In this document: positions 4,995-32,253 of the stretch, in pieces
How positions within the stretch are numbered: position 1 is the stretch's first letter
Layout: the number at the start of each line of letters is the position of its first letter
DNA from: Rhodospirillales bacterium
GTDB lineage: Bacteria; Pseudomonadota; Alphaproteobacteria; CACIAM-22H2
NCBI GenBank assembly: GCA_016195145.1
Contig: JACQAF010000161.1
Coordinates: 1-33,850 of the forward strand
DNA: 33,850 bases
Direction of reading: 5' to 3'
Notes under the pieces: model-generated
Told to the model about the DNA's origin: nothing
Database searches by the model: none
Seen by the model: only the letters and a program-made list of their open reading frames with translations
Position numbers and translations under genes: made by a program

Positions 4995-5909
4995 TTACGC
5001 GGACGCGGCTCCCTGGACGGCGAGCGTCCCCGACCGCCCGTCGACCGTACCGGCGACCAGTCGCGCCACGGGAATGCCCGATGGCCGGGAGAGCAGCTCG
5101 CGCGCCGTATCGCCGAGATTGACGAAGGCCACTCCCGCCCCGGCCATCGCAGCGAGAAAATCGGCAAACCACGCCTTGCGGGCCATGCCTTCGATCTCGG
5201 CATGGACGGTCATCACGTTAAGCCGGTCGGCGGCGAGCAGGCGCCGATAGGCGTCGATCAGCCTGCTCTCGGGATATTCGGGCCGGCCGAGCAGCTCGTC
5301 GAGCGTCGGCAGGGTGGTCGGTATCTGGAGCGTACGGAAGGTCCGCCCGTCGCAATGCGGGAAAAACGGCGTCGTGCCGCGCGCGTCGCTGGCGTAGTCG
5401 AGCGCGGCCGCGTCATAGGCGGCCAGGCTGTTGGTATCGGCCTGCCAGCCGGCGGCCCCGGCGGTGCGCGCCGGCCGGCCGAAGACATCGGCGAATGCGC
5501 GATGCGCCTTGGCGAATTCGGCGTCAGCCGCGGCCGCGTCCATCCGCGCGAGGCCGTCCTGCCAGCGCACATGGTCCCAGCAATGGATGCCGACCTCGTG
5601 CCCCGCCGCCTCGATGGCGCGCATCGTCGCCGCGTTGCGCCGCGCGATGTTCGGCCCCGGCCACAGCACGCCGTTCAGCAGCGTGCGCCAGCCATAAAGC
5701 GCCACCACGTTGGTGCGCGACACCTTGGCGAAAAAGCCCTTGCGGAAAATGCGCTTGATCGCGCGGCCGGTGTTGTCGGGGCCGAGCGAGAACAGAAACG
5801 TCGCGCGGACGCCCCGCGCGGTCAGCATTTCGGCCAACGCCGGCGCGCCGATGCGCGTGCCGCGGTCGGTGTCGACATCGACCTTGATCGCGAGCCGGAG
5901 ATGGCTCAT
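4995..5909 (-). CDS. arnD: Polysaccharide deacetylase family; ArnD-like 4-deoxy-4-formamido-L-arabinose-phosphoundecaprenol deformylase
   Basis: LAIKVDVDTDRGTRIGAPALAEMLTARGVRATFLFSLGPDNTGRAIKRIFRKGFF and EVGIHCWDHVRWQ; ATG overlaps the stop of the upstream arn gene (ATGA, 5906-5909). Confidence 0.9.
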   Translation of the reverse strand: MSHLRLAIKVDVDTDRGTRIGAPALAEMLTARGVRATFLFSLGPDNTGRAIKRIFRKGFFAKVSRTNVVALYGWRTLLNGVLWPGPNIARRNAATMRAIEAAGHEVGIHCWDHVRWQDGLARMDAAAADAEFAKAHRAFADVFGRPARTAGAAGWQADTNSLAAYDAAALDYASDARGTTPFFPHCDGRTFRTLQIPTTLPTLDELLGRPEYPESRLIDAYRRLLAADRLNVMTVHAEIEGMARKAWFADFLAAMAGAGVAFVNLGDTARELLSRPSGIPVARLVAGTVDGRSGTLAVQGAASA

Positions 5910-6970
5910 GGGGTCGTCGGGGTCTCTCGAAGGTCCGCCGAATCGGTCGGGCCGGCGAGCAGATAGTAGTCGAGCGTCTTGCGGATCGCCGTCTTGAGGT
6001 CGGTCGTCGGCCGCCAGCCGAGATGGGTTTCGGCGTTGCGGATCGAGGGCACGCGCACGAGGATATCCTCGTAGCCGGCGCCGTAATATTCCTTGGATTC
6101 GATCGGTACGATCTTCGCCTTGCGCGCCGCCTCGGCGTAACCGGGGTACGATCCGATCATCTCGACCAGAATCTCGGCCAGTTCGCGGATCGACATGTCG
6201 TTGCGCGCGTCGCCGATATTGAAGATGCGCCCGTCCGCCCCGCCGTTCTTGTTCTCGATAATGCGCACCAGCGCCTCGACCGCGTCGTCGATATAAAGGA
6301 AGCAGCGTCGCTGGCTGCCGCCATTGACCAGATAGACGTTCGAGCCGCGAATGATATTGCCGACGAATTGCGTCAGCACGCGCGAGCTGCCCTCCTTCGC
6401 CGCCCAGATGTTGTCGAGCTTCGGCCCGATCCAGTTGAACGGCCGGAACAGCGTGTATTGCAGGCGCTTCTCGAAGCCGTAGCCATAGATCACCCGGTCG
6501 AGAAGCTGTTTCGAGCAGGCGTAGATCCAGCGCTGCTTGTTGATCGGCCCGAGAACGAAGTTCGAGGTCTCCTCGTCGAACTCGCGCTCGGGATTCATCC
6601 CGTACACCTCGGAGGTCGAGGGGAACAGGATGCGCTTCTTGTGGCGCACGCAGTCGCGCACGATGGCGAGGTTGGCCTCGAAGTCGAGCTCGAACACCGC
6701 CAGCGGGTCCTTCACATAGGTCGCCGGGGTAGCGATGGCGACCAGCGGAATCACCACGTCGCATTTCTTGACGTGGTATTGCACCCACTCGCGATTGATC
6801 GTGATGTCGCCCTCGACGAAGGTGAAGCGCGGATTGCCGAGGCACTTCTCCAGCTTCCCCGACTGAATATCCATGCCGAAGATCGACCAGTCGCGATGCT
6901 TCAGGATGTATTCGCTGAGATTGCTGCCGATGAAACCGTTGACGCCGAGGATCAGGATTTTAAGACTCAC
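5906..6970 (-). CDS. arnA: ArnA dehydrogenase/decarboxylase domain as a stand-alone NAD-dependent SDR protein
   Basis: KILILGVNGFIGSNLSEYILKHRDWSIFGMDIQSGKLEKCLGNPRFTFVEGDITINREWVQYHVKKCDVVIPLVAIATPATYVKDPL matches the C-terminal half of enterobacterial ArnA. Confidence 0.9.
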   Translation of the reverse strand: MSLKILILGVNGFIGSNLSEYILKHRDWSIFGMDIQSGKLEKCLGNPRFTFVEGDITINREWVQYHVKKCDVVIPLVAIATPATYVKDPLAVFELDFEANLAIVRDCVRHKKRILFPSTSEVYGMNPEREFDEETSNFVLGPINKQRWIYACSKQLLDRVIYGYGFEKRLQYTLFRPFNWIGPKLDNIWAAKEGSSRVLTQFVGNIIRGSNVYLVNGGSQRRCFLYIDDAVEALVRIIENKNGGADGRIFNIGDARNDMSIRELAEILVEMIGSYPGYAEAARKAKIVPIESKEYYGAGYEDILVRVPSIRNAETHLGWRPTTDLKTAIRKTLDYYLLAGPTDSADLRETPTTP

Positions 6971-7070
6971 GGGGGACTCGTTTCTCCGCTCGGGATGGGG
7001 GCACGCGGGCGCCAGAATACAAGAGACCGCGCACCAAAGAAGCCAAAAATACGCTTTTTATATCAAATAA

Positions 7071-7997
7071 TTAATCGAGAATGCGGCCGGCGGCGGGAGC
7101 CTCCCCGCCGGCCGGCGATTCGACGATGGGCCCGCCATCCCACTGCCAGTGCCCGATCTCGACCGTCCCCTCGCCCGCCGCGACGCGCAACGGCGTCGAG
7201 GAAACCACCTCGCCCGGCCGCCCCGCGCCCGCGCCGGCATGGGCCCGCCAGACATATAGCCGCCGGCCGTCGAGATGGGTGAACGCGCCGGGAAACGGCT
7301 CGGCCACCGCGCGCACAAGATCGACGATGCGCTGCGCCGGCTGCCGCCAGTCGATACGCCCGTCCTCCGGCCGCCGGCCGCCGAAATAGCTCGCCTGCGA
7401 TTCGTCTTGGACGATGCGCGGCGCTGCCCCGCGCTTCAACGCATCGATCTGTCGCTCAAGCACTCGCCGCGCGGCGGGCACGAGCTTTTGCATCACCTCG
7501 AACGCAGTTTCCTCGGGGCCGATCGCCACCGCTTCCCGGTCGACGATGGCGCCGGCATCGGCGCGCTTGGCCATGCGATGGAGGGTCACGCCGGTTTCGC
7601 GTTCGCCATGCAGCACCGCCCAGTTGACCGGCGCACGCCCGCGATATTTGGGCAACAGGGAGCCGTGCATGTTGAATGCGCCGCGCCGCGCACGATCGAG
7701 CGCCGCCATCGGGATCATTCGCCGGTAATAGAAGGAGAGGATCAGGTCCGGCGCCAGTCGCTTCACCGTTTCGGCGACCTCCGGTCCGTCCTGCGGTTCG
7801 GCGAGGATGACGGGGATGCCGTGGCGGCGGGCAAGTTCGGCGACCGAACGGAACCAGACGCGCTCGCCCGGCGCGTCGGCGTGGGTGAAAACGCAGCGCA
7901 CATTCTCGCCGCGCGCAATCAGCAGGTCGAGACACTCATAGCCGACGTCGCTATAGCCAAAAACGACGATGCCGCCGCTACTCGTCGAGCCGTTCAT
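7071..7997 (-). CDS. ArnA-like formyltransferase domain as a stand-alone protein
   Basis: VVFGYSDVGYECLDLLIARGENVRCVFTHADAP, FNMHGSLLPKYRGRAPVNWAVLHGERETGVTLHRM (methionyl-tRNA formyltransferase-like fold, HxSLLPxxRG motif). Confidence 0.9.
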   Translation of the reverse strand: MNGSTSSGGIVVFGYSDVGYECLDLLIARGENVRCVFTHADAPGERVWFRSVAELARRHGIPVILAEPQDGPEVAETVKRLAPDLILSFYYRRMIPMAALDRARRGAFNMHGSLLPKYRGRAPVNWAVLHGERETGVTLHRMAKRADAGAIVDREAVAIGPEETAFEVMQKLVPAARRVLERQIDALKRGAAPRIVQDESQASYFGGRRPEDGRIDWRQPAQRIVDLVRAVAEPFPGAFTHLDGRRLYVWRAHAGAGAGRPGEVVSSTPLRVAAGEGTVEIGHWQWDGGPIVESPAGGEAPAAGRILD

Positions 7998-8973
7998 GGA
8001 CCGTCTTGATCGCGAAGCGCGGGCGGCGGCGCACCTCTTGATAGATGCGGCCGACATATTCGCCGACGATGCCGAGCCCGGTAATGCCGACCCCGACCAG
8101 GAAATAGAGGATGCCGAACAGGGTGAACAGGCCCTCCGCCTCGGGCCCGATGATCAGGCGGCGGAAGGCGAGATAGATGACCAGCAGCAGGCTGAGCGCC
8201 GACACGCCCATGCCGAACAGGGTGAAGACCTGCAGCGGCACCAGGCTGAACCCGGTCATCAGGTCGAAATTGAGCCGGATCAGCCGGTAAAGATTGTATT
8301 TCGACGCGCCGACCGTGCGCGCCGCATGCTCGACCTCGATTTCGGCCGGATTGATCGCATAATACTGGGCGAGCGCCGGAATGAAGGTCGAACTTTCGCG
8401 GCTGTCGACCATCCGGCGGACAACATCGCGGCGATAAGCGCGCAGCATGCAGCCCTGGTCGCGCATCTCAATGCCGGTGGTCTGGGCGCGGACGCCATTG
8501 ATCAGCAGCGAGCTCCAGCGGCGGAACGGGCTGTCCTGCCGGTTCTTGCGGTAGCCGCCGACGACGTCGTGGCCGCGCTCGATGGCGGCGAGCAGCTTGC
8601 CAATTTCTTCGGGCGGGTTCTGCAGATCGGCGTCGATCGTCACTACGATCTCGCCGCGCGCCTTCTCGAAGGCGGCCATGATCGCCATGTGCTGACCGTA
8701 ATTGCGCTCAAGCTCGATCACCCGCACCTCGCGCGGCCGCGCCCGGTGCAAGCCGATGAGGATTTCGACCGAGCGGTCGCGGCTGCCGTCGTCGACGAAC
8801 AGGATCTCGAACGGCTTGCCGAGATTGTCGAGCGCCGCGGTCAACCGGTCGAACAGCGTCTTGATGTTGCCTTCTTCGTTATAGACCGGGACGACGACGC
8901 TGACATAGGGCGCGCGCAATGCGCCGGCTGGCGCCAGATCGGGGGTGGGCGAAGAGCGTAGCGACATTTGCAT
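7978..8973 (-). CDS. arnC: Undecaprenyl-phosphate 4-deoxy-4-formamido-L-arabinose transferase (GT2 family, two C-terminal TM helices)
   Basis: YVSVVVPVYNEEGNIKTLFDRLTAALDNLGKPFEILFVDDGSRDRS and ARGEIVVTIDADLQNPPEEIGKLL; ATG at 8973. Confidence 0.9.
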   Translation of the reverse strand: MQMSLRSSPTPDLAPAGALRAPYVSVVVPVYNEEGNIKTLFDRLTAALDNLGKPFEILFVDDGSRDRSVEILIGLHRARPREVRVIELERNYGQHMAIMAAFEKARGEIVVTIDADLQNPPEEIGKLLAAIERGHDVVGGYRKNRQDSPFRRWSSLLINGVRAQTTGIEMRDQGCMLRAYRRDVVRRMVDSRESSTFIPALAQYYAINPAEIEVEHAARTVGASKYNLYRLIRLNFDLMTGFSLVPLQVFTLFGMGVSALSLLLVIYLAFRRLIIGPEAEGLFTLFGILYFLVGVGITGLGIVGEYVGRIYQEVRRRPRFAIKTVHERLDE

Positions 8974-8978
8974 CCCCC

Positions 8979-10154
8979 TTAGGCGTTGGCCCGGCCGAGG
9001 ACGACGGCCATCGCGCCGACGACGCGATCCTGATCGGCCTCGGTCATGTCGGGAAATAGGGGCAGGCTGCAGATGCGCGCGCAAATGCGCTCGGCCTCGG
9101 GGAAATCGCCCGGTTTGAAGCCGAACTCCCGCCGGTAATAGGCGAAGAGATGCGCCGCCGTGTAGTGGAGCCCGACGCCGATATCCTGCTCCTTCATCGC
9201 GGCGATGAATTCGTCGCGAGCGAGCCCGGTTGTCTTGTCGTCGATCAGGGCGGTGAACAGATGCCAGGCGTGGCGGTGCGGAAACGTCGCCGGCTGCGGC
9301 AGCTCGATCTGACGCCAGCCGGCGAACAGCTTCTGGTAACGCGCGGCGAGCGCGCCGCGGCGAGCATTGAAGCCGTCGACCTTGGCGAGCTGATGCAGGC
9401 CGAGCGCCGCCTGCAAATCCATCATGTTGTATTTATAGCCGGGCGCGACGACGTCGTACTCCTGGCTGCCGGCCTTGCTGAAGCGGTTGAAGGCCTCGCG
9501 GTCGATGCCGTGGAAACGCATCGTCGACACCGCGCGCGCCACGTCGGCATCGCGGGTGACGACCGCGCCGCCCTCGCCGGTGGTCATGTTCTTGTTGGGA
9601 TGGAAGCTGAACACCTGAATGTCGCCGAAGGCGCCGAGACGCCGGCCCTTGTATTCGGCGCCGATGGCGTGGGCGCAATCCTCGATCACACGCAGATTCT
9701 TCGCCCGCGCCAGGTCGTAAAGCGGGTCGAGATCGACCGGCAGACCGGCAAAATGCACCGGCACGATCGCCCGCGTCCGCGGCGTGATCGCCTTGGCGAC
9801 GCGGCCGACATCGAGGTTGAACGTATCGGGTTCGACATCGGCCAGCACCGGCCGGCCGCCGGCCTGGACGATGGTGTTGAGCGTGGCGACGAAGGTCAGC
9901 GGCGTGGTAATCACCTCGTCGCCCGGTTTGAGGCCGAGCGCGAGAAGGGCGAGATGCAGCCCGGCGGTCGCCGAGGTGACGGCGAGCACGCGCGGCCCGC
10001 CGAAATATTCGGCGAGCGCCGCCTCGAATTTCTGGACGCGCGGGCCGGTGGCGAGCCAACCGGATTTGAGGCAGGCGACGACCTCGGCGATCTCGGCCTC
10101 GTCGATCGAGGGCCGCGCAAACGGCAGGAAGGGCCGGGCTGGTTTGTCGTCCAC
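8979..10154 (-). CDS. arnB: UDP-4-amino-4-deoxy-L-arabinose--oxoglutarate aminotransferase (DegT/DnrJ/EryC1 family)
   Basis: FLPFARPSIDEAEIAEVVACLKSGWLATGPRVQKFEAALAEYFG and FSFHPNKNMTTGEGGAVVT (PLP lysine region). Confidence 0.92.
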   Translation of the reverse strand: MDDKPARPFLPFARPSIDEAEIAEVVACLKSGWLATGPRVQKFEAALAEYFGGPRVLAVTSATAGLHLALLALGLKPGDEVITTPLTFVATLNTIVQAGGRPVLADVEPDTFNLDVGRVAKAITPRTRAIVPVHFAGLPVDLDPLYDLARAKNLRVIEDCAHAIGAEYKGRRLGAFGDIQVFSFHPNKNMTTGEGGAVVTRDADVARAVSTMRFHGIDREAFNRFSKAGSQEYDVVAPGYKYNMMDLQAALGLHQLAKVDGFNARRGALAARYQKLFAGWRQIELPQPATFPHRHAWHLFTALIDDKTTGLARDEFIAAMKEQDIGVGLHYTAAHLFAYYRREFGFKPGDFPEAERICARICSLPLFPDMTEADQDRVVGAMAVVLGRANA

Positions 10155-10162
10155 CGCCCCCC

Positions 10163-10528
10163 CTACCCGCGCGCGATCAGGTAGACGCCGAGGATCACGA
10201 CGAGGATGCCGATGATCCGCATCGCCGTCAGGTTCTCGTTAAACAGATAGAAGGCCGCAACCGCGTTGACGATGTAGCCGATGCTGAGCATCGGATAGGC
10301 GTAGCTCACCTCGACCCGCGACAGGACCAGCAGCCACACCGCGACGCTGACCACATAGAGCACGAGGCCGAACAGGACGAAGAGATTGCCCGCCACCTGG
10401 AGGCCGATCGGGCCGAAATTGGCCAGCGCGAAGTCGAAATGCCCGACCTGGCGCATGCCCTGCTTGAGCGCCAGCTGCGCGCCCGCGTTGAGCAGCACCC
10501 CGAGCAGGATCAGCGGCATATACTTCAT
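10163..10528 (-). CDS. SMR/EamA-type small membrane protein, ArnE/ArnF-like flippase subunit
   Basis: MKYMPLILLGVLLNAGAQLALKQGM..SRVEVSYAYPMLSIGYIVNAVAAFYLFNENLTAMRIIGILVVILGVYLIARG; four predicted TM segments; start overlaps the upstream stop (10525-10528). Confidence 0.85.
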   Translation of the reverse strand: MKYMPLILLGVLLNAGAQLALKQGMRQVGHFDFALANFGPIGLQVAGNLFVLFGLVLYVVSVAVWLLVLSRVEVSYAYPMLSIGYIVNAVAAFYLFNENLTAMRIIGILVVILGVYLIARG

Positions 10529-12225
10529 TTTGGGTCGTCCCGGTTGACGGCCAGCACGAAACGTTCGGTCCGCGCGACCTCGTAAATCCGGTTGGTCGGA
10601 TCGGCCCGGAGTCCGTCGAATCGCCACGGCGGAACGATCATATAAACAGTTTTAGGCCCCCGCCAGCGTTCCCAGAACGTCGCATCCTCGATCATCCAAC
10701 CGCTGGTGTCCTCGATTGTCGTGCCGAACTCAAGCTCGCCGGTCCATTCGACGATGGTCACCGTGCGCCCGATATAGACCGGCAAGTCCTGATGGTAGTT
10801 GCGGTAGGTCACCACCTCGTCGCCGGGCTTGAGGCGCTGGTTGAGAATTTCGGCCAGCGGCTTGATCGAGCGCAGCTGATAGCGGCCGACCAAGGCGTCG
10901 CCGAGAAGATTGACCGACACGGCAGCGACGAACATGACGACGAGCGAGGCTATCAGGCCGCCGCGGCGCACGACGACGATGGCCGCCGCAGCACCCAGCA
11001 CCAGGCTTCCGGCGGTCGCCGGCACGAGCCAGCCGGCGACATGCATCTCGCCAGCATTCTCCGCCCCGATCAGGCGTTCGGGAAAGGCGAGCACGGCGAG
11101 CGCGGCGATGGCGAGCGCGCTCCACAACCCGGCAAAGGCGGTGAACCCGGCTCGCATGCCGCGCGGCACGACGGCGTCGGCGAAGCCGTCGGCGAGGTAA
11201 CGGCCGATGAAAATCGCCAGCGGCGGAAAGACCGGCAGGATATAGGGAATGAGCTTCGAATCCGATGCCGAGAAAAAGGCGAAAATCAGCAGAACCCAGA
11301 GCAGCAGGAACATCTCGTTCTGATGCCGGCGGCGGTCGCGCCAGGCCTCGGCGACCGCCCGCCCTGTCGCCTGCCCGAGGAACACCACCCACGGCAGGAA
11401 GCCGAGCAGGATGATCGGGATGAAGAACCACGGCGGCTGGTAGCGGTTGTGAATCTTGGTCACGAAGCGCAGGAAATGCTCGTGGACGAAATAGAACCAG
11501 TAGAATTCCGGCGTCCGCGAGCCGGCCATGATGTGCCACGGCACGGCGAGGACGAGGAACAGGAGCAGGCCCGTCGGCAGATGCACCTCGCGCAGCAGCC
11601 GCCACTGCCCCGTGACCGCCAGCCAGACAAACACGACCAGCCCCGGCAGCACGATGCCGATCAGCCCCTTGGTCAGCACCGCGCCGGCCGCCATTGCATA
11701 GGCAAGGTACAGCAGGACCGAACGCTCGCGCCCCGGCGGCGCGCGAACGGCAAGGAGAAAGGCGAGCAGCGTCGCCGAAATAAAGAAGCTCACCGGCATG
11801 TCGAGCAGGATCACCCGACTCAGGCCGAAATGGAGAAGCGATGTCGCCAGCACCCCGGCGCCGAGCAGGCCGGCAGCGCGGCTGTAAAGCCGCCGCCCGC
11901 CTATATAGACAAGCAGACAGCTCAAGAGCCCAAATCCCGCCGTGGTGAAGCGCAGCGCCGCCTCGGACGTGCCGAACGCTTCGATCGCCGCCGCCTGGAT
12001 CCAGTAGAACAGCGGCGGTTTCTCGAAATACTTCACCCCGTTAAGGCGCGGCGTCACCCAGTCGCCGGTCGCCACCATCTCGCGCGGGATTTCCGCATAG
12101 CGCGCCTCGCTCGGCACGCCGAGCGGCCGCTGGCCGATAAATGCGCCGAACAAGAGCCCGATGAGGACGGTGAGCGCCAGCAGATCGCGAATCCACGACG
12201 CCCGGGGGCGTGAAGAATCCATCAC
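10525..12225 (-). CDS. arnT: ArnT-like 4-amino-4-deoxy-L-arabinose (glycosyl)transferase, PMT/GT83-type membrane protein
   Basis: PSEARYAEIPREMVATGDWVTPRLNGVKYFEKPPLFYWIQAAAIEAFGTSEAALRF; multiple TM segments; first gene of the arn run. Confidence 0.88.
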   Translation of the reverse strand: MMDSSRPRASWIRDLLALTVLIGLLFGAFIGQRPLGVPSEARYAEIPREMVATGDWVTPRLNGVKYFEKPPLFYWIQAAAIEAFGTSEAALRFTTAGFGLLSCLLVYIGGRRLYSRAAGLLGAGVLATSLLHFGLSRVILLDMPVSFFISATLLAFLLAVRAPPGRERSVLLYLAYAMAAGAVLTKGLIGIVLPGLVVFVWLAVTGQWRLLREVHLPTGLLLFLVLAVPWHIMAGSRTPEFYWFYFVHEHFLRFVTKIHNRYQPPWFFIPIILLGFLPWVVFLGQATGRAVAEAWRDRRRHQNEMFLLLWVLLIFAFFSASDSKLIPYILPVFPPLAIFIGRYLADGFADAVVPRGMRAGFTAFAGLWSALAIAALAVLAFPERLIGAENAGEMHVAGWLVPATAGSLVLGAAAAIVVVRRGGLIASLVVMFVAAVSVNLLGDALVGRYQLRSIKPLAEILNQRLKPGDEVVTYRNYHQDLPVYIGRTVTIVEWTGELEFGTTIEDTSGWMIEDATFWERWRGPKTVYMIVPPWRFDGLRADPTNRIYEVARTERFVLAVNRDDPK

Positions 12226-21396: not shown

Positions 21397-21945
21397 ATGA
21401 TAGCGATCATGTCGGAGACGATAATTCAGCATCTGCGCGACCTGCCGGGGACCGAACGGGTCTTCGACGAGGGAAAATTTCTGTTCCATCAGGGCGATAC
21501 GGTCGCGGTCCTCCATGAAATCCTGGACGGATCGGTGTCCCTGGCGCGCCATCAGGTCGATGGCGCCCTGGTCGTCACGCAACGCGCCATAACCGGCTCC
21601 ATCCTCGCCATGCCGTCGCTTTTCGCGGATGTCTATCATTGCGACGCCATCGCCGATCTACCGACCCGCACCCGATCGGTCGCCAAACCCGCGCTCTATG
21701 CGCGGCTGATCGAGCGGCCGAGGCTCGCCGCGGCGTGGCACGAACGCCTCGCCTCGGCGTTTCACAACGCCCTGCAACGGGCCGAAATCCTGTCGCTCAA
21801 AACCGTCGCCGCCCGCCTCGATGCCTGGATCGCCGCGCATGAGGGGAAATTGCCGCCGAAGGGCGAATGGAAAACGATTGCCGACGAGATCGGCACCAGC
21901 CCCGAGGCGCTCTACCGCGAGCTTGCCAAGCGCCGCAAGGACTGA
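21397..21945 (+). CDS. Crp/Fnr-type transcriptional regulator
   Basis: N-terminal cyclic-nucleotide-binding-like fold (GKFLFHQGDTVAVLHEILDGSVSLARHQ..) and C-terminal HTH (WKTIADEIGTSPEALYRELAKRRK). Confidence 0.75.
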   Translation: MIAIMSETIIQHLRDLPGTERVFDEGKFLFHQGDTVAVLHEILDGSVSLARHQVDGALVVTQRAITGSILAMPSLFADVYHCDAIADLPTRTRSVAKPALYARLIERPRLAAAWHERLASAFHNALQRAEILSLKTVAARLDAWIAAHEGKLPPKGEWKTIADEIGTSPEALYRELAKRRKD

Positions 21946-22046: not shown

Positions 22047-22077
22047 TTGAGTCTGTAGTCCATACAGACAGTACAGT
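22047..22077 (+). promoter_or_regulatory. MerR-family-type promoter/operator (TTGAGT - 19 bp - TACAGT with internal dyad)
   Basis: -35 TTGAGT at 22047-22052, -10 TACAGT at 22072-22077, spacer exactly 19 bp; perfect dyad GTCTGTA-GTCCA-TACAGAC at 22051-22069. Confidence 0.7.
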
Positions 22078-22171
22078 GGGGATGCCTGCCCGGGTTTATG
22101 GCCGGAAGCGCGCAATCGAGCGCGACGCCGAAGGGCGATTTGCAACGACCCTTGCCGATAAGGAGAACGCC

Positions 22172-22960
22172 ATGACCAAGCCTGCCCCCGTTCGCACGGC
22201 AAAGCCCGCGGTGACATTGCGCGCGAAGACAGCGATGCCCGACTGGTCGGCCATCGCCAGCGAGCCGGCGGCCGCGGTGCTCGAAGCCATATTTGGCATG
22301 TTCGGCAAGGGCGACCGGCTGGCCGGCATCGACGAAGCCGAGGATCGCGTCTGGCGGGCTATTCAGGAGATTTTCGCTTATTCGGATTTGCCGCCGACGA
22401 CCCCAGCGATTGCCGCCGCGACGCGGCTCGATGGCAATACCGTGCGCCAGGCGTTGCAGCGCCTGCGCACGCGCGACCTCATTGTCGTCGACAGCGAAAC
22501 CGGCGATATCCGCGGCGCCTATCCGTTTACCCTTGTGCCGACCGAGCACCGCGTGACGCTGGGCGGTCGCGAACGCCTCGCCATGTGCGCGATCGACGCG
22601 CTTGGCATCGGCGCCATGTGCAGGATGGATACGGTCGTCAACTCGGCATGCCGCCACTGCAAGGCGAAAATCGCCGTGCGGACGGAACAGGACGGCCGCG
22701 CCCTTTCGGCCGTCTCGCCGCATGGCGCCGTCGTCTGGGCAGGTCTTGAATACGCCGACGAATGCGCGGCGACATCGTTGTGCCGCGTGCTGGCGTTTTT
22801 CTGTTCCGACGCGCATCTCGATCTTTGGCGGCGGGAAAACGACGCCCGGCACGGTTATCGTCTTTCGATGGCCGAGGGATTGCAGGTCGGCCGGGCGATT
22901 TTCGCGCCGATTCTCGCCGACGCGCCGCCCCTTACGGCCGCCGCAGCCGCCCGCGCCTGA
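22172..22960 (+). CDS. Alkylmercury lyase (MerB)-like protein with N-terminal helix-turn-helix-like segment
   Basis: [106 protein letters not shown] resembles the MerB domain; C-A-I-D and a downstream Cys align with the catalytic Cys/Asp/Cys. SD AAGGAG upstream of ATG 22172. Confidence 0.78.
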
Positions 22961-23078: not shown

Positions 23079-23717
23079 ATGGCCTCTTTCCCCAACGTCA
23101 CCGTCGTCTCCCACCCGCTGATCCAGCACAAGCTCAGCCTGATGCGCGACAAGGAGACTTCAACCGCCGCCTTCCGCCGGCTGCTGCACGAGATCGCGTT
23201 GCTGCTCGGCTACGAGGTGACGCGCGGCCTGCCGCTCACGACGCGGCGCATCGAAACGCCGCTGGCGGCGATGGACGCGCCGTTCATCGAGGGCAAGAAG
23301 CTGGTGGTGGTGCCGATCCTGCGCGCCGGGCTCGGCCTCGCCGATGCGCTGCTCGAGCTCGTTCCCTCGGCCCGCGTCGGCCATATCGGGCTTTATCGCG
23401 ATCCGAAGACCCGCGCCGCGATCGAGTATTACTGCAAACTGCCCGAGGACGTGACGCAGCGCACCGTGATCCTGTGCGACCCCATGCTGGCCACCGCCCA
23501 TTCGGCGATCGCCGCCGTCGATCTTCTCAAGCGCAAGGCGGCTGTCCAGATCAAGTTCCTCGCCCTGCTTGCCGCGCCCGAGGGCGTGAAAGCCTTCACC
23601 GCCGCGCACCCCGACGTGCCGGTCACCCTGGCGGCGATCGACGAGCGCCTCAACGACCACGCCTATATCGTGCCCGGCCTCGGCGACGCCGGCGACCGCC
23701 TGTTCGGCACGAAATAG
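23079..23717 (+). CDS. upp: Uracil phosphoribosyltransferase
   Basis: [87 protein letters not shown]. Confidence 0.96.
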
Positions 23718-24014
23718 GCGGTATCTCTACGCGTGCTATTTTTAAGAGGCGTTGATTCAACGGCACGGCATCATCGCCGGCTGACCCAGGATACGCTCTG
23801 CGGCCGCCGACAAACGATGGGGGATCATCCGACGCCCGCGCGATCACGCCGGGCCTTCACGATTTCGGCCTCGGAGAGGCCCTACCGTCCGCACAGAGTA
23901 CGTTACCGATAAGAGCGCGCAACCGCGCTACCCGCTACAACATGCCCACCACAAATTCCTTGGCATTGACTACTCAGCAGCTATCAAATTTTTAATCAAA
24001 TTTGCCCACAGAAC

Positions 24015-24476
24015 CTAACTTGACTCCGTAATCGGAAAGTTTCTTATAGTATGCTCTCGGACTTTTCTGCGCTCGATTGATCGAAAATCAACCTGGATCG
24101 GCCAAACATCAGATGGCAAAATGATATCATTTTTCATATAAATACAGTATGTAATTATAGTTTTACAATAAAGCATTAGATATTCTTTTTCAGATCGTGA
24201 AAATTTATTAACATCATTATTGATCTGGCGTAAAGCTATTATCGTAGCCGCCACGGCCAAATCGTAGTTTCCCAATCGACTAGCCACGTTCCCACATAGA
24301 ATATTGACATTATAGGTAACAGTGGCTGAGGGCATCTCATCTCGAAAGATGTCATAGATCGCCTTTAAACAGAGCCATGCTTCCGCATATTTCTCTTGAG
24401 ACGCGTTATCGAGGGCCTTGTTCCAAAAAAGGGCCGCTCTGAATGCTCTAGCGAGCCTGCACATAGTGCCAAACAT
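24015..24476 (-). CDS. Hypothetical protein; candidate immunity protein of toxin cassette A
   Basis: AT-richer 153-aa ORF whose ATG directly follows the TAA of the upstream minus-strand ORF (24477-24479). No family recognised. Confidence 0.5.
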   Translation of the reverse strand: MFGTMCRLARAFRAALFWNKALDNASQEKYAEAWLCLKAIYDIFRDEMPSATVTYNVNILCGNVASRLGNYDLAVAATIIALRQINNDVNKFSRSEKEYLMLYCKTIITYCIYMKNDIILPSDVWPIQVDFRSIERRKVREHTIRNFPITESS

Positions 24477-24772
24477 TTATTCGCCACCAATCTTTCCAGA
24501 AAAATTAACAGCGGCTCGAATCACCTCCATAAATTTCTCAAAGGGTGTCCTTGGTGTCGGGCTGTTCGCTGGACCAGGACTTGCAGACCCTTTTAGTGAA
24601 TCATAAAAGTGAATATCTTCCAAGTGCCTATCTTGGGTATATGCGCGAGTATTAGCGGTTGGATCTTTATTGACGTTCAAGTCGATTGACGGGCTTCGGG
24701 TAGGCCCTCCACCATAGCCTCTCCCGCCTCCCGCGCCGGCCCCCTCGGTAGCATCAATATCATGGGGACTTA
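24477..24772 (-). pseudogene. Cassette A toxin C-terminal segment, frameshifted relative to the pretoxin repeat
   Basis: Continuous reading ..LSPHDIDATEGAGAGGGRGYGGGPTRSPSIDLNVNKDPTANTRAYTQDRHLEDIHFYDSLKGSAS..KIGGE* in a frame different from the pretoxin repeat at 24776-24909, which itself hits TAA at 24770-24772. Confidence 0.45.
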
Positions 24773-24775
24773 AGC

Positions 24776-24909
24776 GAAGGCGGCGGTGACGGCGCCGTTC
24801 TGGAACTTGCCGCCGGCGAGGACGGAGGTCGTGCCGCCGATCACCGCGTGGCTGACCAGCCGCACGGCGAAGTCGTTGGACGGGATCAGCGGCCCGGCGA
24901 ACGATCCGG
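24776..24909 (-). repeat. 134-bp direct repeat, copy A (pretoxin GSFAGPLIPSNDFAVRLVSHAVIGGTTSVLAGGKFQNGAVTAAF)
   Basis: Identical to 26461-26594 except two positions, both synonymous (TCC/TCG Ser, GAC/GAT Asp). Confidence 0.95.
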
Positions 24910-25162
24910 CCGCCGCCGCATCATCCCGCCGGCCGGGCGTTCACGATTTCGGCCTCGGCGAGCGTGCGCCCGCCCATCGTCGTCATCCGCACGGCGGTCG
25001 TGCGCTTCACCATTGACCGGTGCAACGCTACTGGATGCAGGGGTGGCGGTAGGGGTGCAAGCACGAAGTCAAGACTTTCTGAGGTAAAACCATCGCCCTC
25101 GCGCCAACATTTCGCAGTGCACTCATCAACAAATTCGCGACGCCGCAATCGTAAAAGAGAGA

Positions 25163-25470
25163 TTACATTTCTTTATCACGGGCGGCTTCCTCGTTCTCAT
25201 ACAATTCTGCCCATGCCATAGACTCAAGCTCGTTCTCGTGTATGAGCTCCCTATCCCGCAAATTTTCTATCAGCCCGCGCGCGACATGCACAAATACCGG
25301 CCATGAAACAATCGGGAACAGCGACGCCCCGGCGTGGCGCGTTGCCAAAACTATCTCAGCGATGTCGTTCTACCACAGCCCATATTTTTGCCCGATGATC
25401 GGCGGATCGATCCTGACTAACAGAAGATCGTCCCTGTGCTCGCTCCGCAACCGCCGCAACCGAAAGCAGC
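25163..25470 (-). pseudogene. Degraded small protein (possible immunity gene remnant) with in-frame TAG
   Basis: One frame reads SEHRDDLLLVRIDPPIIGQKYGLW*NDIAEIVLATRHAGASLFPIVSWPVFVHVARGLIENLRDRELIHENELESMAWAELYENEEAARDKEM*; internal TAG at 25370-25372. Confidence 0.45.
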
Positions 25471-25720
25471 GCCGGGGGAATCAAGATCATGATCGTTAGA
25501 CGAGGCCAAATAGAAATCCAGCCGCGGCTCGTTCGGCTTCGAACAAGCCCCTTCACTGTCGGCCGCTCGGATCATTCTAAATGGCGGCGTCAGCCCCGGC
25601 GCGTGGCGATTATCGGAAACGGCTCAGGATCGGCATCACCGCCGCCGCCCGCACCGTGCGCTTCGCCAGAGACCCGGCGCGGCTCTGTTGATGGCTGTAG
25701 GACACAGAACGCTCAGAAAG

Positions 25721-26059
25721 CTAAATATCGAGTTGATACATCCACCAATAGATCGCCACGCATAGTCCAAGCACGACGATTCCAGCAATGAAATTTGTCA
25801 AGTATCTTTCCGCGCGCATTAGATGACGAGCAACCAAATAGTATATCACCACGAAAATCCCCGGGCCTGCCAACGCAGACGCCCCTAAAAAAAGCCAAAC
25901 CAGCGATAATCTCTCATCCGTTGCATAGGAGAGAAAGATTACACCCGCATCCCAACCCAATCGAATCATCGGCAGGAGAAGAATTGCTGCTGTTATGGAT
26001 GTGCATCCAGATATTATGCGGATCAATATTTTAAACCTAATCTGTCTATCGTTTCCCAA
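25721..26059 (-). CDS. Small membrane protein; candidate immunity protein of toxin cassette B
   Basis: 112 aa with about three hydrophobic segments (ITAAILLLPMIRLGW, LVWLFLGASALAGPGIFVVIYYLV, FIAGIVVLGLCVAIYWWM); start overlaps the 3' end of the toxin ORF by 37 nt. Confidence 0.55.
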   Translation of the reverse strand: MGNDRQIRFKILIRIISGCTSITAAILLLPMIRLGWDAGVIFLSYATDERLSLVWLFLGASALAGPGIFVVIYYLVARHLMRAERYLTNFIAGIVVLGLCVAIYWWMYQLDI

Positions 26060-26964
26060 TAATCAATCGCGGGGGCCCTCGGAATCGTCGGGACAGATCC
26101 TCCAGACTTGTAGATCGGATATGTTGCAGCACTGTTCGAATTCGGTCCAGAAAGCATGCGATATGTTGGCGCACGATATGAATTAGCATGCCCTATCACG
26201 AGAGCGTCAAAGTCTTTCTGCGATATGCCATCTGGTGGAGAGATTTTATAAACATTTTTACCGCTCTGAAATGCCTCTAAATCTTTGGCACTGGTCTCGG
26301 CGCTCTTGTTAAACTCGACATTCCCTCCGCCAAGAGAAAACTGTGCGTCGATCTTTGCCGTTGCGGTGTCATTCCCCTGATATACGAACAAGCCGCAATG
26401 ATTGAACGGAGAGCCTGCTACATCGCGACACGCCAGCGCCACTTCATTGAAGAGGTAACCGAAGGCGGCGGTGACGGCGCCGTTCTGGAACTTGCCGCCG
26501 GCGAGGACGGAGGTCGTGCCGCCGATCACCGCGTGGCTGACCAGCCGCACGGCGAAATCGTTCGACGGGATCAGCGGCCCGGCGAACGATCCGGTGGCGC
26601 CGGCCAGGGCCTGCGATCCGCAATCCCCGCTCTGCGCCGCCAAGACGCTCCGGCTCGTCGGCATGCGCGGCGGCGCTCCCGAACTCGCCGTCGATCTCAC
26701 CGGGCTCGCCGAGCCGGAGGCCCGATACTGGCCCCGGATCATCGCTTTCTTGAGATAGGACCCAATTCCGGCAACCGACACTTCCGGCGCCAAGCATCGG
26801 GCGGCACGCGCTGCCTCGATATGCCCCGAATACCGCCGTGCGGCATCCCGGCCTGGATGGCCCCCCAACGATACGAGGCAGGGGAATGGCGCCCGGGCAC
26901 CCGTAACGCAACCAAGCTGGAGCGCTTTCCAGTCCGCAGGAATCGCTGAAAGGCTGCCTAGCAT
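26023..26964 (-). CDS. Polymorphic toxin C-terminal fragment (pretoxin plus toxin domain), N-terminal delivery region absent
   Basis: GSFAGPLIPSNDFAVRLVSHAVIGGTTSVLAGGKFQNGAVTAAFGYLFNE is a typical pretoxin segment preceding variable C-terminal toxins; then ..NHCGLFVYQ..GHANSYRAPTYRMLSGPNSNSAATYPIYKSGG... No RHS or haemagglutinin repeats upstream; the N-terminal reading of this ORF is uncertain. Confidence 0.55.
   Translation of the reverse strand: MLGSLSAIPADWKALQLGCVTGARAPFPCLVSLGGHPGRDAARRYSGHIEAARAARCLAPEVSVAGIGSYLKKAMIRGQYRASGSASPVRSTASSGAPPRMPTSRSVLAAQSGDCGSQALAGATGSFAGPLIPSNDFAVRLVSHAVIGGTTSVLAGGKFQNGAVTAAFGYLFNEVALACRDVAGSPFNHCGLFVYQGNDTATAKIDAQFSLGGGNVEFNKSAETSAKDLEAFQSGKNVYKISPPDGISQKDFDALVIGHANSYRAPTYRMLSGPNSNSAATYPIYKSGGSVPTIPRAPAIDYWETIDRLGLKY
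26461..26594 (-). repeat. 134-bp direct repeat, copy B
   Basis: 132/134 identity to 24776-24909 by direct comparison. Confidence 0.95.
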
Positions 26965-27441: not shown

Positions 27442-27547
27442 GCTGCTGCCTCGGCCGCTTTGCGGCTGAGCGCGAACGCGCGGCTGGCTTGTCGTCGACC
27501 GGACGGCAAACGCCGCGAGCCGCCAACACGTAGTGAGGATTGCAACA

Positions 27548-29107
27548 ATGAGGAAAATCGTTCCGCTATTCGGCGGCGTGGCCACGTTGGTCGCCGCCCT
27601 GCTAATTCTGTTCCCCGGCTTGTCCGGCGCCGCCGCGCAAACCTGGGAAGCCGTCAATCCGCAAATCGCCGTCGGCAAGAACATCCGTCTGGAGGTGAGG
27701 CTAGTGGAGGCCGACGGCAAAGCCATCGCCAGACTCGTCACTGCAAAATCGACACGGCTTGATATGGGGCCAGACGGCATGGCGACGATGACCTCTCGCC
27801 TCAAGCCCGTCGCGACGACGACCTCCGGCGCCCTTGCGTTCGAGACCGACATCGTCATGGCCGGCCGTTGGGCGTTGACCATCAGCGGCACGCCGGCGGG
27901 CCAGTCGACACCGATTTCCGGTATGGTGATCTTTACCGCCACGGAGAAGCGCAGCGAGACGGAACCGCCCGCGGACAAAGCGGCGCCTGCCGAGCGCAAG
28001 CCCGCTTACTACCGAAACCCGATGGGCCTGCCGGACATATCGCCCACGCCCAAGAAGGACTGGATGGGAATGGACTACATCCCCGTCTATGCCGACGAGG
28101 CGAACGATCCGCCCGGCACGGTGCGCATCAGCCTTGCCAAGGTACAGCGCGCCGGCGTGCGCACGGAGGAAGTGACGCGGCGCAATCTCGCGCGCACTGT
28201 GCGCGCCGTCGGCACCATCGAGCCCGACGAGAGCCGCCTTGCCGTTGTAACCGCCAAGTTCGGCGGCTTCGTCGAGGAACTATTCGTACCGGTGACCGGA
28301 GCGTCGGTGCGCGCCGGCGCCCCGCTCATACGGGTGTGGATCGAAAGCACCGAGATTCTGCAGAAGCAATCGGACCTGCTGACCGCCCTGCGCGGTGGGG
28401 CGGGGCGCCCCGAGGACGTGGACAGGGCCGTGCGCAACCTGCGCCTGTTCGGCATTCCCGATCCGGTGATCAACCGCCTGCGCGACACGCGCGAGCCTGT
28501 ACGCTCGATCGTGCTCACCGCGCCCGCGGATGGCACGGTGATGCAGAAACCGGCGCTGGTGGGTATGCGCTTCGCGCCCGGCGACACGCTGTTCAAGACC
28601 GCCGATCTGTCGAAAGTCTGGGTCCGGGCCCAGGTGGCTGAACGCGATTTGGCGTTGGTTCGTGCTGGACAGGGAGTGCGGGTCATCCTGAAGGCGTACG
28701 ACGATCAACCCCGCGACGGCCGGGTTGCCTTCGTTTATCCCGAGCTCGACGCCCCGACACGCACCGCCCAAATCCGGATCGAACTGGACAATCGCGACGG
28801 GGTACTGCGTGCCGGGCTCTACGCCGATGTTGAAATCGACACGCGCTCCGACACGCCGGTGATCGCCATTCCGGACTCCGCCATCATCGACAGCGGCAGG
28901 CGCCGGGTCGCCTTCGTCGCCAAGGACGGCGGCGTGTTCGAGCCGCGTGATCTCCTGCTGGGCCGCCGCGGCAACGGCTTTGTCGAGGTTCGCAGAGGCC
29001 TCGCCGAAGGCGAGCGCATCGTTGTCACCGGCAATTTCCTGATCGACGCGGAGAGCAATCTGCGCGCGGCCCTGGCCACCTTCGACCCGCCGCCGGATGC
29101 GCAATGA
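27548..29107 (+). CDS. cusB: CusB-type RND efflux periplasmic adaptor with N-terminal YtkA/FixH-like domain and heavy-metal-binding domain
   Basis: RLEVRLVEADGKAIARLVTAKSTRLDMGPDGMATM..FETDIVMAGRWALTISG (YtkA/FixH-like), YYRNPMGLPDISPTPKKDWMGMDYIPVY (metal-binding domain), then membrane-fusion-protein sequence. Confidence 0.9.
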   Translation: MRKIVPLFGGVATLVAALLILFPGLSGAAAQTWEAVNPQIAVGKNIRLEVRLVEADGKAIARLVTAKSTRLDMGPDGMATMTSRLKPVATTTSGALAFETDIVMAGRWALTISGTPAGQSTPISGMVIFTATEKRSETEPPADKAAPAERKPAYYRNPMGLPDISPTPKKDWMGMDYIPVYADEANDPPGTVRISLAKVQRAGVRTEEVTRRNLARTVRAVGTIEPDESRLAVVTAKFGGFVEELFVPVTGASVRAGAPLIRVWIESTEILQKQSDLLTALRGGAGRPEDVDRAVRNLRLFGIPDPVINRLRDTREPVRSIVLTAPADGTVMQKPALVGMRFAPGDTLFKTADLSKVWVRAQVAERDLALVRAGQGVRVILKAYDDQPRDGRVAFVYPELDAPTRTAQIRIELDNRDGVLRAGLYADVEIDTRSDTPVIAIPDSAIIDSGRRRVAFVAKDGGVFEPRDLLLGRRGNGFVEVRRGLAEGERIVVTGNFLIDAESNLRAALATFDPPPDAQ

Positions 29108-32100
29108 TCGCCGCGCTCATCCGCTGGTCGGCGACCAACATCGTGTTGGTCCTGATCGGCGCGGTATTCGTGACGCTGGCCGGGCTCTACGCGATGACGC
29201 GTATCCCGCTGGACGCGATTCCCGACCTCTCGGACACCCAGGTCATCGTCTACACGGAGTACCCCGGCCAGGCGCCACAGGTTGTCGAGGATCAGGTCAC
29301 ATTTCCGCTGACCACGTCGCTCTTGAGCGTGCCGCGCTCCAAGGTGGTGCGCGGCTTCTCGATGTTCGGGGTGTCCTTCGTCTATGTCATTTTCGAGGAC
29401 GGCACCGATATCTATTGGGCACGCAGCCGCGTGCTCGAATACCTGAACGTCGCCGCGCGGCGGCTGCCGAGCGGCGTGACCCCCGGCCTTGGCCCGGACG
29501 CCACCGGCGTCGGCTGGGTCTACCAATACGCGCTCACCGCCAAGGACCAAGACCTCGCCAGCTTGCGTTCGCAGCAAGACTGGCAAGTGCGCTTCAGCGT
29601 CGCGAAGGCCGAGGGTGTTGCCGAAGTTGCGAGCGTCGGCGGCTTCGTCAAACAATACGCGGTCGTGGTCGATCCGCATCGCATGCGGTCGTTCGGCATC
29701 TCGCTCAAGACGATTCAAAACGCGGTCCGCAGCAGCAACATGGATGTCGGCGGCCGCACCATCGAGCTAGCGGAAACGGAGTTCATGATCCGTGGTCGCG
29801 GCTATATACGCGATCTCGCCGATCTGGAGCGGATCACGCTGATGGTCGATAACGGCACGCCCGTGCTGCTGCGCGACGTGGCGCGCGTCGAGCTGGTACC
29901 GGACGAGCGACGCGGCATCGCCGAGATGAATGGCGAAGGCGAAGTGGTCAGCGGGATTGCCGTGCAACGCTACGGCGTCAACGCGCTCGACGTCATCCGC
30001 TCGGTCAAGGAGCGCCTTGCCGAAGTGGCGTCGAGTCTGCCATCCGGGATCGAGATCGTTCCGGTCTATGACCGCTCGGCGCTCATCGAGCGCGCCATCG
30101 CTACACTGATCGCCACGCTGACCGAGGAGAGCATCGTCGTGGCGCTGGTGTGCTTTGTCTTTCTGCTCCACGCGCGGAGCGCCCTGGTGGCGATCCTCAC
30201 CCTGCCCATCGGGATTCTTATCTCCTTCGCCGCCATGCATGTGCTCGGGATCAGCTCGAACATCATGAGCTTGGGCGGCATCGCCATTGCCATCGGCGCT
30301 ATGGTCGACGCGGCTATCGTCATGATCGAGAACGCCCATAAGCGCTTGGAGCACGCAAGGCCCGAAGCTTCGCGCACCGAAGTCCTGATCGGGGCGGCGC
30401 AGGAAGTCGGGCCGGCGCTGTTCTTCAGTCTGTTGATCATTACGGTGTCGTTCTTGCCGATCTTCGCGCTCGAATCGCAGGAAGGCCGCCTGTTCAAACC
30501 ACTCGCCTACACCAAGACTTTCGCCATGGCGGCCGCGGCGATCCTGTCCATTACTCTCGTGCCGGCGCTTATGGTTCTGTTCATACGCGGCCGCATCGTC
30601 GCCGAGGCCAAGAACCCGATCAACCGGCTGTTGATCTGGCTTTATCGGCCCGTAATCGGCTTGGTCCTGAGGGCAAAAATCCTCACGCTCGTCATTGCGG
30701 CGGCAATTCTTGGTTCCGCCGTCATCCCGGCCCAGCGTCTCGGCACCGAGTTCATGCCCAACCTCAACGAGGGCACGTTGTTCTACATGCCGACGACGTT
30801 GCCCGGTCTGTCGGTGACCAAGGCAGCGGAGCTGCTCCAGGCTCAGAACAAGATTATTCGCTCATTCCCGGAGATCGACACGGTATGGGGCAAAGCCGGC
30901 CGCGCGCAGACCGCGACCGATCCTGCGCCGACCGAGATGTTCGAGACGATCATCAATTTGAAGCCGGCGGCTCAGTGGCGACCCGGCGTCACCGTGGACT
31001 CGCTAATCGCCGAGATGGATACGGCCCTGCAGTTTCCCGGCGTGAGCAACGCCTGGACCATGCCGATCAAGGCCCGCATCGACATGCTGGCGACTGGGAT
31101 TCGCACGCCGGTCGGCATCAAGCTGTTCGGCGATGATTTGCGCGAACTGGAGCGGCTGGCGCGCGAGATCGAGACTGTGGTTCGGGCCGTGCCGGGAACG
31201 GCGAGTGCCTACGCCGAGCGGGTGAACAGCGGTTACTTCCTGGAAATCGAAACCGACCGCGACCGGCTCGCTCGCTACGGTCTGATGGTCGAGAACGTGC
31301 AAGAGACAATCGCCATGGCGCTCGGCGCCGCACCGGTGACAACCACCGTAGAGGGTCGCGAGCGCTATGCCGTCGTTCTGCGCTACCCGCGCGACGTACG
31401 CAGTGATCCGGATGCCATCGCGTCCGAGGTTCTGGTGTCGCTACCCAACGGTGCGGCGATTCCGCTCGGCGATGTCGCGACAATTCAACGCACGCAAGGT
31501 CCGACAAGCATCCGGACCGAAAACGGCCGGCTGGCGGTCTACCTCTATATCGATATGCGCGACCGCGATCTCGGCGGTTATGTGCGCGAGGCCCGCGAAA
31601 TCGTTTCACGCTCTGTCCAACTGCCGCCGGGCTACTCCGCCGTGTGGAGCGGCCAATTCGAATACTTCGAACGGGCGCAGAAACGGCTGCAGATAGTTGT
31701 GCCAGCGACCCTGCTGGCGATCTTTCTGCTCCTCTATTTGAATTTCCGCCGCCTGACCGAGACGTTAATTGTGATGCTGTCGCTGCCGTTCTCACTCGTC
31801 GGCGGGTTGTGGATGATGTACGCCATGGGTTTCAACCTGAGCGTGGCAGCCGCCGTGGGGTTCATCGCGCTGGCCGGAGTCGCCGCTGAAACCGGCGTCG
31901 TGATGCTCATCTATCTTGATCATGCCTATCGCGATCGTGCGGCCGCGTGCGCGCACAAAGGCGAGCCCCTGACCCGACAGGATATCTATAAGGCGATTAT
32001 GGTTGGCGCCGTCGATAGGGTGCGGCCGAAGATGATGACGGTAACAGCGATCATGGCCGGGCTCTTACCGATTCTGTGGAGCAGCGGCACCGGCTCGGAA

Positions 32101-32253
32101 GTGATGCGCCGGATCGCAGTTCCTATGATCGGCGGCATGGTCTCGTCGACCGTGCTCACTCTCATCGTCATCCCGGCGATCTACGCTCTCGTCAAGGGCG
32201 CAGCGCTGCGGCGCGCATTGAGAATGGATGCCCCCGCTCCAGCGGCGAGATGA
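29104..32253 (+). CDS. cusA: CusA/CzcA-family heavy-metal efflux RND permease
   Basis: 1049 aa; LIRWSATNIVLVLIGAVFVTLAGLYAMTRIPLDAIPDLSDTQVIVYTEYPGQAPQVVEDQVTFPLTTSLLSVPRSKVVRGFSMFG; ATGA overlap with the adaptor stop. Confidence 0.96.
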   Translation: MIAALIRWSATNIVLVLIGAVFVTLAGLYAMTRIPLDAIPDLSDTQVIVYTEYPGQAPQVVEDQVTFPLTTSLLSVPRSKVVRGFSMFGVSFVYVIFEDGTDIYWARSRVLEYLNVAARRLPSGVTPGLGPDATGVGWVYQYALTAKDQDLASLRSQQDWQVRFSVAKAEGVAEVASVGGFVKQYAVVVDPHRMRSFGISLKTIQNAVRSSNMDVGGRTIELAETEFMIRGRGYIRDLADLERITLMVDNGTPVLLRDVARVELVPDERRGIAEMNGEGEVVSGIAVQRYGVNALDVIRSVKERLAEVASSLPSGIEIVPVYDRSALIERAIATLIATLTEESIVVALVCFVFLLHARSALVAILTLPIGILISFAAMHVLGISSNIMSLGGIAIAIGAMVDAAIVMIENAHKRLEHARPEASRTEVLIGAAQEVGPALFFSLLIITVSFLPIFALESQEGRLFKPLAYTKTFAMAAAAILSITLVPALMVLFIRGRIVAEAKNPINRLLIWLYRPVIGLVLRAKILTLVIAAAILGSAVIPAQRLGTEFMPNLNEGTLFYMPTTLPGLSVTKAAELLQAQNKIIRSFPEIDTVWGKAGRAQTATDPAPTEMFETIINLKPAAQWRPGVTVDSLIAEMDTALQFPGVSNAWTMPIKARIDMLATGIRTPVGIKLFGDDLRELERLAREIETVVRAVPGTASAYAERVNSGYFLEIETDRDRLARYGLMVENVQETIAMALGAAPVTTTVEGRERYAVVLRYPRDVRSDPDAIASEVLVSLPNGAAIPLGDVATIQRTQGPTSIRTENGRLAVYLYIDMRDRDLGGYVREAREIVSRSVQLPPGYSAVWSGQFEYFERAQKRLQIVVPATLLAIFLLLYLNFRRLTETLIVMLSLPFSLVGGLWMMYAMGFNLSVAAAVGFIALAGVAAETGVVMLIYLDHAYRDRAAACAHKGEPLTRQDIYKAIMVGAVDRVRPKMMTVTAIMAGLLPILWSSGTGSEVMRRIAVPMIGGMVSSTVLTLIVIPAIYALVKGAALRRALRMDAPAPAAR

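Follow-up and report, generated by a model that had tools for sequence, protein, structure and literature searches.

A solitary merB gene behind a predicted mer-type promoter in a Rhodospirillales genome

How does a gene for an organomercurial lyase come to stand apart from the rest of a mercury resistance operon, and what would switch it on? The question is raised by a stretch of Rhodospirillales DNA (33,850 bp, one whole contig, C159; hereafter the window) from a 2.82-Mb genome bin (320 contigs, completeness 83%, contamination 0.04%) whose protein relatives place it among the Alphaproteobacteria. Here merB lies directly behind a predicted promoter of the type that MerR proteins control.

The gene (22172..22960, + strand) encodes a protein of 262 residues, assigned from Pfam, PDB matches, and AlphaFold and Foldseek. 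The Pfam MerB profile (PF03243) scores 109.8 bits (cut-off 27), and the MerB equivalogs of NCBIfam, which are narrower, reach 60-64 bits, under their cut-offs. PDB sequence matches are the MerB2 of entry 5c17 along with MerB entries. An earlier note, made from the sequence alone, had described a MerB-like gene with a Cys-x-x-Asp motif and a downstream Cys, and had proposed alignment with MerB as a check on the Cys/Asp/Cys set. The alignment bears out this reading: Cys139 to Asp142 (C-A-I-D, codons 22586..22597) include the equivalents of MerB Cys96 and Asp99; Cys160 (22649..22651) corresponds to Cys117; and Cys204 (22781..22783) to Cys159. All four residues are invariant across an alignment of the window protein and its relatives (33 sequences); in 5c17 a Ser takes the place of Asp99. 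An AlphaFold model based on this alignment reaches a mean pLDDT of 90, and a Foldseek search (E<=0.001) returned 11 PDB matches, all of them MerB chains, with 5c17 the best (TM 0.82 by target length). Sequence and model together confirm the predicted product of 22172-22960 as a canonical organomercurial lyase (MerB). SaoL, a MerB-like lyase (NF040728), was also considered and was rejected, its weak match of 64.6 bits lying far below the cut-off of 140. The assembled genome holds one MerB gene, the window copy.

The nearest sequences, 40-50% identical, are either MerB proteins encoded in alphaproteobacterial mer operons or the MerB portions of MerBA fusions. The merB1 product of plasmid pMR68 is 39.6% identical to the window protein, and the cloned operon that contains merB1 confers phenylmercury resistance and volatilisation in E. 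coli (PMC3737084). In the MerB tree the window protein occupies a long isolated branch (0.94 changes per column) with weak support, so no donor of merB is claimed. Despite this large divergence, the reading frame and active site are intact.

The surroundings of merB suggest long residence. Both GC and GC3 of merB are those of the neighbouring genes, and no flanking repeats were found, so the gene looks like an old resident of the genome; a mobile-element origin finds no support in repeats, GC, or GC3. Downstream, after a gap of 118 bp, lies upp, a housekeeping gene for uracil phosphoribosyltransferase (23079..23717, + strand). Upstream is a small Crp/Fnr-like gene with a cNMP-binding domain (21397..21945, + strand), assigned, as was upp, by profile search. 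This upstream gene is probably unrelated to merB: its homologues in 7 other genomes of the family adjoin neither merB nor upp. It was rejected as the merB regulator on that ground and on the type of the dyad described below, which is presumably not a Crp/Fnr-type site.

Other parts of the window drew separate remarks. Positions 5200-12225 hold, on the minus strand, an apparently complete arn-type operon (lipid A aminoarabinose modification; judged from translations only). Positions 27533-32253 hold a CusB/CusA-type heavy-metal efflux pair with a YtkA-like N-terminal domain on CusB. Between them, 23750-26964 is A-T-rich, its GC falling to 41% where the contig as a whole has about 65%; an open reading frame there (24015-24476) is without a Pfam match, and another (26023-26964) looks, by eye, like the C-terminal portion of a protein of polymorphic or Rhs-like type.

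The putative control region lies on the + strand immediately ahead of merB. It comprises three elements: a -35 hexamer, TTGAGT (22047..22052), where CTTGA is conserved in relatives' mer promoters; a -10 hexamer, TACAGT (22072..22077), placed 19 bp from the -35 as in relatives' mer operons; and a mer-type operator dyad, GTCTGTA-GTCCA-TACAGAC (22051..22069), recognised from the sequence, from comparison with relatives, and by a scoring matrix. The dyad core, CTGTAGTCCATACAG (22053-22067), has an odd centre at 22060, 7 bp past the -35 box, a distance in keeping with the published rule for 21-bp sites (PMC5045206). In the window dyad an A in place of C breaks the innermost pair of the arms, which are usually 8 bp long. 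A 5' leader would then run from 22078 to 22171 and includes a Shine-Dalgarno sequence, AAGGAG (22160-22165), ahead of the merB ATG at 22172, which begins 94 bp beyond the -10. (A further in-frame ATG, at 22082, falls close to the expected transcription start and is not preferred as the start codon.)

Comparison with relatives was made through 80 merB loci from named genomes, recovered with an alignment as query of genome contigs (a single-sequence query gave no match). The core CTGTA-N5-TACAG is present in 72 of these related loci, mostly between divergent merR and merT; examples are the merR-merT gaps of Bosea (TTGACTCTGTAGTTGCTACAGACTGCACACT) and Bradyrhizobium SK17 (TTGACCCTGTAGTCCCTACAGGCCTTAGGGT). 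Several relatives (loci L078, L109, L125, and L108) have merB units with an operator of their own. The consensus of 60 sites reads tCTTGAcCCTGTAGTtaCTACAGACCgCATgnTAcg, against GCTTGAGTCTGTAGTCCATACAGACAGTACAGTGGG in the window. The published mer operator/promoter dyad of pMR68, GCACCTGTAGCCGCTACAGGTTG, likewise has a 19-bp spacer (PMC3737084). A literature search for CTGTAG, merB, and merR together gave no match.

Scored against a matrix of 60 distinct operators, the window site reaches 29.4 bits, within the leave-one-out range for true sites (25.7-58.5) but towards its bottom; some 26 of these bits are owed to the 13 core bases by which the training sites had been picked, so the score shows class membership more than strength. 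Elsewhere in the window the score never rises above -0.2, and in 2 Mb of random sequence it peaks at 8.1. The pattern TTGNNN-19-TANNNT carrying a dyad of 7 bp or more is expected about 0.03 times per window, a rate that comes from one event in 2 Mb of simulated first-order Markov sequence matched in composition. Could the pattern be a chance palindrome, with merB expressed by other means? Matches to a consensus promoter generally turn up often, and the site upstream of merB shows no ordinary sigma-70 promoter with a 16-18 bp spacer, but the matrix score, the exact match to the mer core of relatives, and the position directly before a mer gene leave this reading next to no credence; score and core match refute it in practice. 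The elements that the earlier note had placed here, about 95 bp ahead of merB, are all found where it had them, and its likening of the layout to mer promoters holds: the core recurs in relatives' mer operons and the matrix score stands far above background. Comparative analysis confirms TTGAGT-19 bp-TACAGT with its dyad as a real, if predicted, mer-type operator/promoter.

This operator also appears to have been maintained. By a rough estimate, which takes the amino-acid branch as a stand-in, the neutral chance of keeping the 13 core bases is about 5e-5. The intact core on so long a MerB branch suggests selection for binding, and together with the intact active site argues for continued use.

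To which metal would such a promoter respond? The operator class is also used by CadR (Cd/Zn), so sequence by itself does not prove mercury as inducer. In favour of a promoter that answers to a CadR/PbrR-type sensor (Cd, Zn, or Pb) and not to mercury, the preferred site of Pseudomonas aeruginosa CadR, AACCCTGTAGTTACTACAGGGTT, has the same core (PMC12301328). However, in relatives this operator adjoins merR-type genes and drives mer genes, and no CadR-PbrR-type gene was recognised in the genome, which makes that sensor very improbable. Since the target is MerB and this operator, in relatives, governs mer genes and neighbours merR-type genes, mercury is by far the most probable inducer.

The regulator itself is harder to locate. 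A search that included the window upheld the earlier note's statement that no MerR, MerA, or MerT lies there: merR, merT, merP, merF, and merA are all absent from the contig. In the assembled 83% of the genome the best MerA matches are 33-36% identical, which is the reductase background seen in other genomes as well (where the search met true MerA, in other genomes, identity was 64-65%). A family search for MerT in the genome found none and matched no control genome either. A whole-genome search found no second copy of the operator; it occurs once, so no regulon was built. The lyase unit that the earlier note called isolated is therefore isolated in this assembly, while its companion claim, control in trans, gained no cognate regulator from the assembled 83%.

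Six proteins in the genome contain a MerR domain, as classified by NCBIfam or by reading: a CueR (C81) and a SoxR (C195), both above cut-off; three distant members of the family (C244, C303, and C311); and a Tn501-like MerR on contig C150. None is of the type expected to bind the merB operator, and at 83% completeness this absence is not proof. The scan for a MerR-family gene with the same operator, suggested beforehand, thus came up empty, the sole mercury-type MerR having a different one.

That MerR deserves a closer look. It heads a cluster (280-1636 of locus L035) in which the Tn501-like merR, with its own CCGTAC-N4-GTACGG operator, is followed by a MerP/CopZ-like protein, then by a membrane protein that by eye is CcdA-like, and farther on by a heavy-metal P-type ATPase. 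The name Tn501-like goes back to the C-x8-C spacing and the operator of Tn501. Might this protein also drive merB? All three of MerR's metal-binding cysteines are present in it; NCBIfam places it closest to the MerR equivalog, at 130.8 bits, below cut-off (a genuine mer-operon MerR gives 134); and its recognition helix has the E-T pattern common to mer regulators. But its own promoter, TTGACTCCGTACTAAAGTACGG, contains an operator, CCGTAC-TAAA-GTACGG, with an even centre and half-sites one base farther apart: GTA and TAC are separated by 6 bp, against 5 in the merB operator. In CadR, one linker base more or less strongly reduced binding (PMC12301328), and by that measure control of merB from C150 is distinctly improbable. 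A related and speculative proposal, also improbable, is that of a split mercury system without MerA, made up of the Tn501-type merR-HMA-CcdA-like cluster and, on another contig, merB under an operator of other spacing. In this scheme organomercurials would be sensed and then demethylated, reduction would not follow, and the cell would get rid of Hg(II) in some way not yet described.

The best explanation is control in trans by a MerR in the unassembled part of the genome. A dimeric MerR-family protein belonging to the CTGTAG-type class, whose operators span 21 bp, would bind the dyad inside the 19-bp spacer, and would hold the promoter off until it bound Hg(II) or an organomercurial. The mercury-bound regulator would then untwist the DNA so that RNA polymerase could use the -35 and -10 elements. 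The MerB made in response would protonate and cleave the carbon-mercury bond through Cys139, Cys204, and Asp142. Since no merA was found, the released Hg(II) is probably handled by thiols or by another route, and not volatilised. A 19-bp mer promoter is nearly silent without MerR and is on with MerR and Hg(II) (PMC11049809); by analogy the window unit should act likewise, provided that its regulator exists. The activity of the enzyme, the identity of the inducer, the presence of a regulator gene in the unassembled part, and what becomes of the Hg(II) are points that we infer, and the whole chain (functional MerB gene, mer-type promoter of its own, unassembled CTGTAG-class MerR, and induction by mercury or organomercurials) is judged probable, with real room for doubt. 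Three things weigh against it: the genome's MerR-family members include no cognate regulator; the operator, with its broken innermost arm base pair, scores at the low end of true sites; and transport genes, MerA, and a second operator were not found.

These same gaps lend weight to the main rival, loss of the regulator. The locus would then be a relic of a merR-merTP-merA-merB operon that has shed its other genes, merR included, and merB would now depend on the weak basal activity of a promoter with a 19-bp spacer, or on read-through. Neither a merR of matching type nor merA nor merT was found, and the near silence of a 19-bp mer promoter without MerR (PMC11049809) fits a relic as well. A possible precedent exists: in genome G404 (locus L063), merB stands alone behind TTGAGTCTGTAGTCCGTAGAGG, in which the right half of the dyad has decayed, with no match to the mer-type MerR query. 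By analogy, such a half-decayed operator is how a relic should look. In the window, however, the dyad core, reading frame, and active site are intact despite large divergence, and the genome is only 83% complete. We regard a relic as unlikely but worth keeping in mind. Trans regulation is favoured on precisely this comparison, the intact core and active site here against the half-decayed operator there.

Other merB settings turned up among the relatives. In Siccirubricoccus sp. G192 and Crenalkalicoccus roseus (L114 and L129, around 8001-8710), merB directly follows an ABC-transporter permease gene (in L114 the order is substrate-binding protein, ATPase, permease, merB), with no mer operator or mer gene nearby; the genome has no MerA, and the arrangement might serve to take up and cleave organometals. 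Translations place merB beside hydantoinase A/B-like genes and a membrane protein with a CC motif in L108 (2624-4129) and L063 (7980-9532), with a TlpA-like protein also near merB in L063. The L108 MerB carries a C-terminal Cys-rich domain, GDCCVFCSYGDVKCPP, which in L124 and L128 is a separate gene before merB. Finally, L030 (G049:C27, about 7000-7450) has a mer-like operator, TTGCTCCTTTAGTGACTACAGG, ahead of a small gene, after which comes a shortened merB without the first catalytic Cys, possibly another decaying unit.

Mercury cycling still poses the question of how organisms survive the Hg(II) set free by MerB when they lack MerA (PMC8261052). A lone merB that has kept a mercury-type switch suggests that demethylation by itself can be a regulated function, and the window unit offers a concrete promoter and enzyme to test. 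Moreover, CTTGA-N3-CTGTAG-N3-CTACAG provides a motif for finding other orphan mer targets.

Both ingredients of the locus, MerB-only genomes and merB units with an operator of their own, are already known. The closest systems are the alphaproteobacterial merRTP(F)(B)A operons and MerBA fusions (for example in Bosea sp. AS-1 and Bradyrhizobium sp. SK17) and pMR68 of Pseudomonas K-62, which share with the window 40-50% MerB identity, the catalytic residues, the CTTGA-N3-CTGTAG-N3-CTACAG core, and the 19-bp spacer. Unlike them, the window is without merR, merT, merP, merF, and merA, and its operator stands directly before merB. The defective merR-o/p-merB2-merD operon of pMR26, also from Pseudomonas K-62, likewise has merB directly behind its own operator and no merA (PMC3737084), but there merR adjoins and merD follows merB2. 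About 900 genomes are documented to have MerB and not MerA, with no known route for the released Hg(II) (PMC8261052); the present genome, as assembled, resembles these merB-only genomes in that respect, and its merB keeps a mer operator. In locus L063 (CAJXFT010000061.1, an uncultured alphaproteobacterium), merB is again alone, behind TTGAGTCTGTAGTCC..., with no mer-type MerR match and no MerA in the bin; unlike the window, it has a decayed right half of the dyad, a MerB in another branch, and other neighbours. The merB unit of the window is thus a further reduction of a known mer system, one that has no linked merR, no merA, and no transport genes, and whose operator is intact.
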